Source of the DNA: Sediminispirochaeta bajacaliforniensis DSM 16054
GTDB lineage: Bacteria > Spirochaetota > Spirochaetia > DSM-16054 > Sediminispirochaetaceae
NCBI RefSeq assembly: GCF_000378205.1
Contig: NZ_KB899408.1
Location: 124,001-188,000 of the forward strand
Length of the DNA stretch: 64,000 bases
Reading direction: 5' to 3'
How positions within the stretch are numbered: the first letter of the stretch is position 1; the number at the start of each line of letters is the position of its first letter. Under the pieces are notes generated by a model. That model did not search any database. It was not told where the DNA came from and was given only the letters and a program-made list of their open reading frames with translations. Positions 39,703-44,903 of this stretch are shown piece by piece. The position numbers and the translations under genes are program-made.

Positions 39703-40812
39703 CTATTCTTCCTTTCTGATGGTGTTTTCGGTTTCAAGATCAAAAAAGTTGGCTTTTTCATAATTGGGAGTAAAGAATATTTGCTGGCCAACCTTAACAT
39801 TAACGTCCGGATCAAGCTTTGCAATCAGCTGATGTTTCTGTGTGTTGACCCATACCTGGGTTTCAGCGCCAAGGGGTTCTATAACACCGATTTCGCCCTT
39901 GATCGTTACGCCCTCTTTTCCCTCTGTTTCATAGGCAAGATCTTCCGGCCTGATTCCGAAAATGACCTCTTTTCCGATGTATCCCTTTTCTCTGAGAAGA
40001 TCGGCATAGACCCCTTTGATCTCAGCCTTGAAATCGGCTTCTTCCATCAGCAGTTTCTTGCCTTCTTCCACAACCTTGACAGTCATGAAGTTCATGGGAG
40101 GTGATCCGATAAAGCCTGCGACAAACCTGTTTGCGGGTTTGTTGTAAAGGGTCAGCGGATTTCCAATCTGCTGGATGATACCATTTTTCATGACAACGAT
40201 CTTGTCCGCCATGGTCATTGCTTCGACCTGGTCGTGGGTAACATAAATCATCGTTGCCTTCAGCCTGTGGTGAAGACTTGAAATCTCCGCCCTCATCTGA
40301 ACCCTCAACTTGGCATCGAGGTTTGAAAGGGGTTCGTCGAAAAGGAAAACCTTAGGCTGGCGAACAATTGCGCGTCCGACGGCGACACGCTGCCTCTGGC
40401 CACCGGAAAGGGCCTTTGGTTTTCTGTCAAGCAGTTCCTCGATGTCGAGAATTCTGGCCGCTTCCTTAACACGTTTTTCGATCTCGGCTTTATCAAATTT
40501 TCTGATTTTGAGACCGAAGGCCATGTTGTCGTATACGCTCATATGGGGATAAAGCGCGTAGTTCTGGAATACCATCGCGATGTCCCGATCTTTCGGCGGC
40601 ACATCATTTACCAGTTTACCGTCGATATAGAGTTCACCCTCGGTGATATCCTCCAAACCGGCAACCATTCGGAGCGTTGTTGATTTTCCGCAACCGGATG
40701 GTCCTACGAGAACGACAAATTCTCTGTCTTGAATGTCGATATTGGCATTGTCGACGGCCCTGACGCCGCCTTCGTAGACCTTGCCGATACCCTTCAGCTG
40801 TACTGTAGCCAT
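39703..40812 (-). CDS. ugpC: MalK/UgpC-type sugar ABC ATPase (possible shared subunit)
   Basis: Nucleotide-binding subunit for carbohydrate ABC importers of the CUT1 group, 369 aa. Walker [21 protein letters not shown]-loop [20 protein letters not shown], signature [17 protein letters not shown], Walker [13 protein letters not shown], switch His in [15 protein letters not shown], and a C-terminal regulatory OB domain ([11 protein letters not shown]). It is a single gene with its own promoter and terminator and no permease beside it. Such orphan MsmX/UgpC-type ATPases commonly energise several sugar importers; the ATPase-less system at 2125-5262 is a good candidate partner. TTGGAGG precedes the ATG. 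Confidence 0.9.
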
Positions 40813-40889: not shown

Positions 40890-42239
40890 TCACTGTAACG
40901 GCTTTTGGCGATACCAGGTCTCCAGCCGTTCGGAAAGATCGGGGACTTGGTTCGGATCGTCGGCCGAGGCCTTTTCCAGGAGCCAGGGAATGATGACATC
41001 TTTTCTCATGGCGTTCCACCTGGAAGGAAGGGGCAGGGGAAAACTGAGATAGTTTTCGGGGGGGATGTGCCCTACCAGAGAAGGAAAGTACTGGGGAATG
41101 ATCTCTTCATTAATAGACGGCAATGAGGAGAAGCCGTCGGCGATGCCAAACGTCCTCATTCGCTTAAACTGGCTGGATTCGAGGAGTTTTTTCTGTGTAT
41201 CACTTTGAAAAAACCAGAGAAGAAAGGCACCTGCAGCCGGCCGGGCATCTGCGGCATTGGGAATTCCAATGAAAAGGAGATCGTCGTTGACCGGTATAAG
41301 GTCGTTCTTGGCCATCCACCGGAAATCAAGGGCACTTCGTTTTTCCGGGGCCAGGTGGAAGAAATTCCGCAGGGTCGAATAGGTAAAAAGGATTCGACCG
41401 TCGGACAATAGTTTAACCGGCGGATCGTAAAGAAAGGTGTCGATGAATTGCTGTTCCAGGTCTCGCCCCTGGTTGACGGTAGTGATCCATTCTCTGATGA
41501 AGGAGATCGCCTGATCCAGGGCCTCCTGATTCCACGTCACCTGTCCCGTTTTTTCTGCTTCTGTAAAATTGGTCCGGAAAAGAGCGGTTTTCTCATACAG
41601 CACTTCGGGGTTCCATCGCGGGGAGAATCCCATGCGGTTGAATCGACCGTCTCTGATGACGTTATATGCGGCACTTTCTTCCTGGATACTTTCCAAATTG
41701 AGGCTGAACTGCTGGTTGCCGCTTCTGGAACTCTTCAAAAAAGCGAGAGCGGGAAGATCGAAACTCACCGGGAGCAGTATGTGCTGCCCTGCTGAATTTT
41801 CCCCACGCGAAAGAAAATCTTGGTAGAAAAGGGATTGGTCCAAAAGAGGAAGGTTCGTCCGCCTCTCCACATCCCTTTCCCCCGTTGCAAAAAGGGATGC
41901 AAGGGAAGAGAACCGCTGTATGGTTTTTTCGTTGTTGAGATAGGCACCGGCAACCAGATCGGGAACCAGTTCCTGCTTATTGGTATCGATCTTCCCTTCT
42001 TCAATTTCCCGTGCGGGCTCGTTTTTGTAGACCACCTCGATTTGGTAGAGCTCCTGCGATGCGTTAAAGAGCTCGGCATAGGCGGCGAATTCGGGGCGGT
42101 TTGTCCAGAGTATCGCCGTAGAAGGGAAGCGACCGGGGTTCTTATACCAGAGAAAGAAAATCGCCGAGGCCAAAAGCAGAAACACAAGGGGCAGCATGAT
42201 GATGATAAGACGTTTACGTAAGTTTCCCGAGAATCCCAT
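40890..42239 (-). CDS. Membrane-anchored solute-binding-like protein
   Basis: A 449-aa protein with one N-terminal membrane segment (LIIIMLPLVFLLLASAIFFL) in place of a cleavable signal, then a family-1 solute-binding-like fold: ILWTNRPEFAAYAELFNASQ, VPDLVAGAY, and GRILFTYSTLRNFF. Compared with real importer proteins the sequence is diverged and it is not next to a permease. It may act as a sensor or anchored binding protein. ATG 42239 is chosen because a TTGACA/TAGAGT promoter ends seven bases before it; an upstream in-frame ATG lies beyond the promoter. It is divergent from the radical SAM gene. Confidence 0.7.
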   Translation of the reverse strand: MGFSGNLRKRLIIIMLPLVFLLLASAIFFLWYKNPGRFPSTAILWTNRPEFAAYAELFNASQELYQIEVVYKNEPAREIEEGKIDTNKQELVPDLVAGAYLNNEKTIQRFSSLASLFATGERDVERRTNLPLLDQSLFYQDFLSRGENSAGQHILLPVSFDLPALAFLKSSRSGNQQFSLNLESIQEESAAYNVIRDGRFNRMGFSPRWNPEVLYEKTALFRTNFTEAEKTGQVTWNQEALDQAISFIREWITTVNQGRDLEQQFIDTFLYDPPVKLLSDGRILFTYSTLRNFFHLAPEKRSALDFRWMAKNDLIPVNDDLLFIGIPNAADARPAAGAFLLWFFQSDTQKKLLESSQFKRMRTFGIADGFSSLPSINEEIIPQYFPSLVGHIPPENYLSFPLPLPSRWNAMRKDVIIPWLLEKASADDPNQVPDLSERLETWYRQKPLQ

Positions 42240-42306
42240 GAAGGCAACTCTACGTGGAGGCGGACGCCTTGTCAATTGCCGACGCTCCTGTGATAATGAA
42301 TCGGTG
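42237..42306. promoter_or_regulatory. Back-to-back leaderless promoters sharing one -35 heptamer
   Basis: The heptamer TTGTCAA (42269-42275) reads as TTGTCA on the plus strand and TTGACA on the minus strand. Plus: -10 GATAAT at 42292-42297, then six bases to GTG 42304. Minus: -10 TAGAGT at 42252-42247, then seven bases to ATG 42239. Both spacers are 17 bases, so polymerases on the two promoters would exclude each other. Confidence 0.65.
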
Positions 42307-43302
42307 ACCAAAAGATTTTATCGCTATAGTTCCTATCTGAAAGACCGTTACAAAGAACCTGTCTACAGGATCGGTATTGATGCGGGATTCGGATGCCCCA
42401 ACAGAAATCCGGACGGTCGGGGGGGCTGCTATTATTGTGACGAAGCTGGTTCACGGGCCGCCTACCAGGAAGCTAATGGACCGCATTCCTTCTTGCGTTC
42501 CTCATCAGGGCCGGACCCCGATGATCCTTATTGGCAAACATGGATGAAGAGACAGATCGATGAAGGAGGGACCTTCCTTTCGAATCGCTACGGAGTGCAC
42601 TCCTTTATTCTCTACGTACAGGCCTTTTCCGGAACCTGGGCACCGGTGCCGAGACTGAAGCATATCTATGATTATCTCCTCTCCCTCGCATCTTTTCGGG
42701 AGCTCATCGTCGGTACCCGTCCCGATTGTGTGGACGAAGAGGTGGTGAAGCTGCTTTCCTCTTATGCTTCCTCCCTCGATATGGATGTGTGGCTGGAGTT
42801 GGGATTGCAGAGTTATCATGATCAGACCCTTCGGCATATCGGCCGGGGGCACGACACCTCTGCCTTTGAAAGGGCCTATGAAACGGCCAGGGCCGGGGGG
42901 CTGAAATGTTCCGTTCATCTGATATTCGGGCTTCCCGGGGAAGACGACGCAATGATGGAAGAGAGTGTTTGTCGCCTGGCCCGCCTGCGGCCCGACGGGG
43001 TGAAAATTCACAATCTGCACATTGCCGAAGGAACACGGTTTGCGCAATGGTGGCGGGAAGGCCGACTGCAGGTGCCCGATACCACACACCATCTGCGGCT
43101 GGTGGCCGACGCCCTGGAGCTCTTACCCGAGACGACTGTCGTTCAGAGGGTAACCTGTGACACGCCCAAGGCCCGGCTCCTTGCTCCCGTCGATTTTGCC
43201 TCCAAAGCCCATTTCTATCGCCTTTTGGATGAAGAGCTTGAAAAACGGAATAGTTATCAGGGAAGACGATTCGCCGAATGTGAGAGAAACGCGCCGGATT
43301 GA
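42304..43302 (+). CDS. TIGR01212-family radical SAM protein
   Basis: Radical SAM protein of the TIGR01212/YhcC group, 332 aa, cytoplasmic. The cluster motif appears as FGCPNRNPDGRGGCYYC with the wide Cys spacing of the Elp3-like radical SAM group, then the family strings FILYVQAFSGTWAPV, VGTRPDCVD, LELGLQSYHDQTLRHIGRGH and CSVHLIFGLPGEDDAMM. Function of the family is not known to me. GTG 42304 is chosen because the -10 box GATAAT ends six bases before it and the ATG at 42238 lacks a ribosome-binding site. The stop overlaps the promoter of the next gene. Confidence 0.85.
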   Translation: MTKRFYRYSSYLKDRYKEPVYRIGIDAGFGCPNRNPDGRGGCYYCDEAGSRAAYQEANGPHSFLRSSSGPDPDDPYWQTWMKRQIDEGGTFLSNRYGVHSFILYVQAFSGTWAPVPRLKHIYDYLLSLASFRELIVGTRPDCVDEEVVKLLSSYASSLDMDVWLELGLQSYHDQTLRHIGRGHDTSAFERAYETARAGGLKCSVHLIFGLPGEDDAMMEESVCRLARLRPDGVKIHNLHIAEGTRFAQWWREGRLQVPDTTHHLRLVADALELLPETTVVQRVTCDTPKARLLAPVDFASKAHFYRLLDEELEKRNSYQGRRFAECERNAPD

Positions 43303-43334
43303 CAGCCCCCCTGTTTTGGCCTACAGTTAGCCTT
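43299..43334 (+). promoter_or_regulatory. Leaderless-type promoter of the unknown 522-aa gene
   Basis: A perfect TTGACA (43299-43304), which covers the stop codon of the radical SAM gene, is followed at 17 bases by TACAGT (43322-43327). ATG 43335 begins after seven more bases. Confidence 0.6.
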
Positions 43335-44903
43335 ATGCGGGGACAGTTCTGGGCAACCGGTGATCCGGGCTCCTCTTCCGGTGGGCTTTCCGGTTTGATT
43401 GATCGTATTCTTTCTATTTTTCTCGGGGCTTCCGATCCGGAACGGGAAAAACGGCGCTTACTGAAAGAGATTGAAAAACAAGTAAAACACCAGAAGTACA
43501 AGTATCTGAAGACCAAGGGGGCCGAAGCGCTGCCCGGCCTTGCGAAGCTTTTTTACGACATGTATAAGGTTATTGCCCCCGCTCAAGTGCTTTTGCAGAA
43601 TGCCCATTCATCGGGGGTTTTGAAGACCATTCTTATCGAAAGTACCCTGACCGGTGAACAGCTGAAGATTCTTGAAACCGTTGATGAGGCGGCGATTAGG
43701 AAGGCCGCCGAGAGTAAGGACACAAAGGTCCTTGCCTCTGAGCTGAAGGACAAGCTCGTTACCTTCTTTTCGGCCTTTAACGGCGACAAAATAAAAGAGA
43801 TCAACAATCGCTACAATCTCCTGCTTCTCTTTTTTCAGCTGATCAATTTCGACTACTATTTCTTTCTTAAGAAGTTCGATTCCGCTCTTCCCGAACGGGA
43901 TTTTGTGTATCATCCTAAATTCGAGACAATCAACGGCAGCTATATCAGCGATGATCTTAAGGATTTTCTGGAGATCATGCTTCAATTCAATAAGGACCAG
44001 AACTGGAATGCCTTGTTTGATATTCTCGCCTCGTATAAACAGACGGAAGTCATAAATCGTGACGATTTTCGTAAGGTGATAAAAAACCTTCTTGATGTTC
44101 AACGCAGTTCGATCCTTACACTGATCGTTCAGCTCATCGACCAGGACCCCTATTATCAACCAAAGAGCTACTATCACGATGAGCATATCGTTGAGGAGTA
44201 TCTGAACAAGATCAAGACCGGTACCGAGATGACGATTCAGAAGATTCTCATTGAACGGCAAAACAAAAAAATCGACACCCTTCTGAACACTATTTTCGGG
44301 ACAACGGCGATCAGCCGCATGAAATACTATACCGAGAAGAATAATATGGCCTTTTCCAAGAAGATGCTTGGGGGCTATATCTACGTTCGTCCTCTCAACT
44401 ATTTGAAAGCCTTTCTCCTCGACTTCTATAAGCGTGATATCAAAACGGTTGTGGATATCTTGTTGATAAGGGGCAAATGGTCGACAAATCTCTCCAGTCA
44501 GCAACTCTCCGAAGCCTTTCATGCGATCATGCAGGTTTCCGAGGATTTGATTGTCTTCGACGAGGGGCTTTCGGAAGAAGGCGGTTCCGGAGTCAAGCTG
44601 AAGGCCTTTCTCCATAAGGGGGACAGAGATAAAAACAGCATCGTTATCTTGCGAAAAATGCTGAAAGATATAAATGATGAGGCGCTGCGGATGATAAATG
44701 AGACCGCAAGCAACCTTATCATGGTCGGAAAAAGCCTGAAATTGGTATTGGAAGACTATGAGAAGAAACCCCACGAACTTATCCTCAACTGGAAGGAGGT
44801 TGAGGGGGCCTTCGAGCATGATGTAAAGGAAACTCTTACCGGTCTCTATAAAAAGATCTACTATTTTATCCAATTGATGCAATTTTATGTAAAGAAGAAA
44901 TAA
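43335..44903 (+). CDS. Uncharacterised 522-aa protein, possibly spirochaete-specific
   Basis: I do not recognise this protein; a match to the Pfam family DUF5312 is possible but unchecked. It is hydrophilic and helical with many Lys and aromatic residues and no membrane segment. A short Gly/Ser N-terminus leads to a charged helix (KRRLLKEIEKQVKHQKYKYL), then long alpha-rich sequence with NRYNLLLLFFQLINFDYYFF and repeated Lys-Asp patterns; the C-terminus ends in aromatic, basic residues (FIQLMQFYVKKK). It does not resemble known enzymes in conserved His/Cys/Asp clusters. ATG 43335 follows a leaderless-type promoter. Neighbours give no functional hint. Confidence 0.65.
   Translation: MRGQFWATGDPGSSSGGLSGLIDRILSIFLGASDPEREKRRLLKEIEKQVKHQKYKYLKTKGAEALPGLAKLFYDMYKVIAPAQVLLQNAHSSGVLKTILIESTLTGEQLKILETVDEAAIRKAAESKDTKVLASELKDKLVTFFSAFNGDKIKEINNRYNLLLLFFQLINFDYYFFLKKFDSALPERDFVYHPKFETINGSYISDDLKDFLEIMLQFNKDQNWNALFDILASYKQTEVINRDDFRKVIKNLLDVQRSSILTLIVQLIDQDPYYQPKSYYHDEHIVEEYLNKIKTGTEMTIQKILIERQNKKIDTLLNTIFGTTAISRMKYYTEKNNMAFSKKMLGGYIYVRPLNYLKAFLLDFYKRDIKTVVDILLIRGKWSTNLSSQQLSEAFHAIMQVSEDLIVFDEGLSEEGGSGVKLKAFLHKGDRDKNSIVILRKMLKDINDEALRMINETASNLIMVGKSLKLVLEDYEKKPHELILNWKEVEGAFEHDVKETLTGLYKKIYYFIQLMQFYVKKK

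Follow-up and report, generated by a model that had tools for sequence, protein, structure and literature searches.

A predicted divergent promoter pair sharing one −35 heptamer is conserved between a tRNA-modification gene and a solute-binding-like gene in Spirochaetia

Main

We describe a 70-base region of the Sediminispirochaeta bajacaliforniensis genome in which a single heptamer, TTGTCAA, is predicted to serve as the −35 element of two divergent promoters, one for an mnmL/ytqA-type tRNA-modification gene and one for a gene encoding a membrane-anchored, solute-binding-like protein. A conserved divergent promoter with a shared −35 is well supported by sequence comparison, and we place the probability of the whole model, in which one −35 is used in two orientations with transcription starting on each start codon or immediately beside it, at roughly 0.8. 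Positions below refer to the window, the whole 64,000-nucleotide stretch of DNA that was analysed, in which the relevant features are as follows.

42269–42275, both strands: shared −35 heptamer TTGTCAA, from direct sequence reading (TTGTCA on the plus strand, TTGACA on the minus strand)
42292–42297, plus strand: mnmL −10 box GATAAT, spacer 17, preceded by TGT (extended −10), from a consensus scan
42247–42252, minus strand: −10 box TAGAGT of the solute-binding-like gene, spacer 17, from a consensus scan
42304–43302, plus strand: mnmL/ytqA-type tRNA-modification radical SAM gene (TIGR01212), GTG start backed by relatives, predicted leaderless
40890–42239, minus strand: membrane-anchored solute-binding-like gene, ATG start, predicted leaderless
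39703–40812, minus strand: leadered gene for a UgpC/MalK-type ABC ATPase, downstream of the solute-binding-like gene; Shine–Dalgarno sequence GGAGG
43299–43327, plus strand: promoter TTGACA-17-TACAGT of the next gene (DUF5312), whose leaderless-spaced ATG at 43335 lies 7 nt after the −10

Results

Promoter geometry and gene identities

An earlier note on this DNA had read the heptamer as a −35 on both strands, with 17-nt spacers, −10 boxes and start codons 6 or 7 nt further on. That reading is exact, and the consensus scan recovers both promoters, TTGTCA-17-GATAAT on the plus strand (42269–42297) and TTGACA-17-TAGAGT on the minus strand (42275–42247), each matching 10 of 12 consensus positions. 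The mnmL GTG at 42304 lies 6 nt past GATAAT and the solute-binding-like ATG (42239–42237) 7 nt past TAGAGT, leaving 64 nt between the two start codons; both genes thus have a −10 about 6–8 nt ahead of the start codon without a Shine–Dalgarno sequence. A further in-frame ATG at 42238, upstream of the mnmL GTG, is a point against the predicted start. The scan of the neighbourhood is not significant by itself (3 promoters found in 5 kb versus 4.4 expected), so the case rests on comparison.

The plus-strand gene had been called a radical SAM gene, and its product indeed matches TIGR01212 (MnmL/YtqA) at 261.6 bits against a curated cut-off of 180. The product of the minus-strand gene matches no family at cut-off and has no Pfam match, placing it below the SBP_bac_1/8 gathering score, and its relatives match SBP_bac_1/8 weakly (13–22 bits versus a gathering score of 26–27). 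Its predicted structure (pLDDT 74), however, resembles MalE-type binding proteins in a Foldseek search (E = 9e-10, TM 0.5–0.6), and on this model the protein has a periplasmic binding protein fold. Together with a membrane anchor, which in the window species lacks a cysteine, unlike its lipoprotein-type relatives, this agrees with its earlier description as an anchored solute-binding-like protein. The ATPase gene, with its normal Shine–Dalgarno sequence and leader, provides a within-locus contrast to the predicted leaderless genes. From their sequences, three adjoining genes look leaderless (solute-binding-like, mnmL and DUF5312); the DUF5312 promoter overlaps the end of mnmL, and a comparable layout occurs in L007, L008, L009/L046 and L042.

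Close relatives retain the arrangement

The order of the source organism is represented by four genomes in the comparison set. In G003, a member of the same genus in which both proteins are ~94% identical, one base differs between the start codons (42284). G002, with proteins 38–50% identical, keeps TTGTCAA together with AATAAT at spacer 17; its minus gene retains a leaderless-spaced ATG, and its mnmL is not leaderless. In this mnmL (L008, 1450–1510), the stretch from the upstream stop to the conserved FYRYS contains no in-frame ATG, GTG or TTG, and the best candidate start is an ATT after GGGG, or else the draft contains an error.

The 1.6 Mb of G003 contain 225 copies of TTGTCAA, six of which have a −10 on both sides and one of which also has both start codons, this being the present locus. 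A genome-wide class of shared −35 promoters in this sister genome was rejected on that basis, and a chance match was rejected from the single full arrangement in G003 combined with shuffle tests across families. Over the same 1.6 Mb, TTGACA-like promoters lie 6, 7, 8 and 9 nt before start codons in 10, 9, 9 and 6 cases, an excess over the average of ~3.5 per gap at longer gaps, and leaderless-type promoters look, by sequence, like a genome-wide class in G003.

The minus promoter is widespread in Spirochaetia

The solute-binding-like gene is present in 242 of 395 Spirochaetia genomes. We modelled its promoter as an exact TTGACA, a spacer of 16–18, a −10 of the form NANNNT (A2, T6) and an in-frame ATG or GTG 5–11 nt further on. 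This model fits 64 of 86 loci examined, from 20 of 24 Spirochaetia families, many of the relatives being draft genomes, compared with an average of 0.01 and a maximum of 1 in shuffled upstream regions. As an independent check, the starts that it predicts lead into lipoprotein-type signal peptides in most relatives. Compared with its plus counterpart, the minus promoter occurs more widely and varies less, and it is probably the older half of the pair. The comparison also points to a leaderless promoter deeply conserved in spirochaetes.

The plus promoter is predicted to share the heptamer

Among the 39 loci that combine the minus model with a divergent mnmL, the heptamer is followed by ATAAT at spacer 16 in one locus, 17 in 11 and 18 in one (13 of 39); the remaining ATAAT occurrences are at spacer 19 in two loci and 29 in one, with none elsewhere within 60 nt. 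The occurrences at spacer 16–18 span six families, whereas shuffles average 0.2 families and 0 of 20,000 reach six. TTGTCAA is invariant in all 13 of these dual loci with mnmL, from the six families; the earlier note had staked its reading on conservation of the heptamer in relatives, and at the sequence level the comparison bears out one −35 shared by two divergent promoters. At the first position of the heptamer, which lies outside the minus hexamer, T is present in 15 of 15 dual loci versus 25 of 49 others (Fisher p = 4e-4) and, considering mnmL-paired loci only, in 13 of 13 versus 14 of 26 (p = 0.003); as the first-T and position tests count related loci as independent, these p-values are optimistic, and family spread is the stronger argument. 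The elements themselves, their spacing and their conservation are directly visible in the sequence and its comparison.

Leaderless spacing of both genes, also proposed earlier, extends from the 6 and 7 nt of the window to families f1, f23 and f24, in which the starts are 64–67 nt apart; the leaderless dual loci are all devoid of Shine–Dalgarno-like motifs. Families f5, f17 and f30, like G002, retain the promoter of a plus gene that is not leaderless. On a tree of solute-binding-like proteins, dual loci fall in f42 and, within a single large section of the tree, on several branches.

Were the heptamer used by the minus promoter only, the extended −10 would suffice to drive mnmL and the resemblance to a plus −35 would be incidental. 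Such an arrangement would fit the TG that precedes the window's plus −10 and the retention of GATAAT in L018, L020 and L026, where it is displaced from the heptamer, but loci with a correctly placed plus −10 always carry the first T, compared with ~34% (family-weighted) of the others, and the plus spacing is held at 17. We therefore consider minus-only use unlikely and favour a −35 that is read in both orientations.

Natural breaks show how far the two genes depend on this sharing. The plus −35 and −10 are separated by additional sequence in L018 and L020 and by a shorter stretch in L026, and L034, L125 and L127 have a heptamer without the first T; both genes are retained in each. Since both genes are kept despite broken plus promoters, the shared arrangement is favoured rather than essential, and coupling of the genes is likewise not essential, as L018, L020, L026 and L034 keep both genes with a broken plus −35/−10 pair. 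In three g37 relatives, the plus −35 and −10 are pulled apart, indicating that the plus −35 is dispensable there. The intergenic insert of L018 and L020, between the plus −35 and the mnmL −10, is ~70–150 nt long and contains short inverted repeats.

A second partner gene and flanking conservation

In family f42 (and, at other spacings, in f40, f14 and L094 of f28), a gene unrelated to mnmL takes the divergent position and encodes a protein of ~160 aa with no Pfam family at cut-off. Its ATG lies 34–38 nt from the heptamer in six f42 loci (L091, L092, L120, L144, L145 and L150), a position that matches the mnmL start in the window (35 nt), and the f42 plus −10s are weaker (TAGTAT, TATGAT, TATCAT and TACTAT). 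The ~160-aa protein (MQIRDxxIIRLIERIGEHYRxNI...) is conserved in spirochaetes, divergent from the solute-binding-like gene, and also occurs in L027 and L097.

Dual loci share a longer conserved segment, GGG-TTGTCAAT-CCCG, which could be an operator lying over the −35 through which one regulator acts on both genes. In dual loci, conservation at positions 7–11 (TCCCG) and −3 to −1 (GGG) exceeds what a −35 would call for, with little such conservation in non-dual loci. Yet TTGTCAATCCCG is nearly locus-specific, at 0–4 copies per genome, it is absent from the window species, and GGG...CCC is off-centre relative to the heptamer, making a regulator site improbable. The heptamer motif as a regulon operator was rejected, more than half of these few TTGTCAATCCCG copies being at the present locus.

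Discussion

Under our model, the 70 bases would form a compact divergent promoter for the housekeeping (sigma-70 type) RNA polymerase, with sigma region 4 reading one pseudo-symmetric −35 heptamer in either orientation. A polymerase facing the minus strand would melt TAGAGT and start at ~42239, on the A of the solute-binding-like ATG, whereas one facing the plus strand would melt GATAAT and start at ~42304, the first base of the mnmL GTG; both mRNAs would be leaderless or nearly so and would not need a Shine–Dalgarno sequence. The plus gene would thereby exploit the back of the minus −35 by retaining an additional T together with a correctly spaced −10. Because the −35 is shared, simultaneous binding of two polymerases is predicted to be sterically excluded; even with one polymerase at a time on the heptamer, both genes would be expected to be transcribed in the same cell at ordinary firing rates. 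We infer where transcription starts, that both promoters draw on a single −35 in vivo, that translation is leaderless and that competition is weak; the pair is compact and probably constitutive.

The earlier note had gone further and proposed that the two genes are mutually exclusive. A shared −35 maintained as a steric switch, keeping mnmL and solute-binding-like transcription exclusive or anti-correlated, would agree with a heptamer that cannot hold two polymerases at once and with an arrangement that is conserved and also occurs with a second partner gene. However, five bidirectional promoters tested in E. coli showed negligible basal competition: basal firing there is too rare for a cross-effect, and competition emerges only upon strong activation of one side (PMC12825309). 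Both genes also persist in relatives with broken plus promoters, and no functional opposition is known between MnmL and the solute-binding-like products; mutual exclusion is thus unsupported, and we regard a switch as very unlikely. A broader conjecture is that selection maintains back-to-back shared −35 promoters as a class throughout Spirochaetia, re-using them with two unrelated partner genes, and that competition for one site of sigma region 4 sets the ratio of a tRNA-modification enzyme to a surface binding protein; this strikes us as quite unlikely.

Overlapping divergent promoters are familiar from classical operons such as tetR/tetA and ilvY/ilvC, which are regulated pairs with known regulators. 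The present locus resembles them in its short divergent intergenic region and overlapping polymerase footprints, and differs from them in lacking a known regulator and in its two predicted leaderless mRNAs. The bidirectional promoters of Warman et al. 2021, as cited in PMC12825309, share a −10 and have starts typically 10, 18 or 23 bp apart, and separate divergent promoters are not classed as bidirectional in PMC12825309. As in those promoters, one pseudo-symmetric core element would be read both ways and binding one way is predicted to block the other, but here the −35 is shared, the −10s are separate (42247–42252 and 42292–42297) rather than one symmetric element, and the predicted starts are ~65 bp apart. 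We read the shared −35 pair as a variant related to, and distinct from, shared −10 bidirectional promoters. Leaderless mRNAs have been measured in Leptospira and are common there (PMC5243855); as in that genus, the −10 spacing is predicted to place the start at the start codon with no Shine–Dalgarno sequence, whereas here two such genes are coupled back to back via one −35.

Recent studies of bacterial bidirectional promoters have focused on sharing of the −10; a conserved shared −35 pair represents a second geometry, one that leaves almost no spare sequence when both genes are leaderless. The requirements of the plus and minus promoters differ at single bases, 42269 and 42275, making shared use and competition directly testable. 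A literature search with partial coverage (most subscription journals lay outside it) found neither a described shared −35 pair nor papers on MnmL.

Wider searches

A scan of the 395 genomes for TTGTCAA-GATAAT-RTG returned 38 matches, compared with ~10 for a reversed control pattern. Ten of the 38 resemble the present locus in sequence or place, about nine represent one recurrent site in family f20 and the others are scattered. In f20 genus g77 (L237–L244), the TTGTCAA-GATAAT-ATG site AGGAGATAATAAAAACATG recurs in eight genomes.
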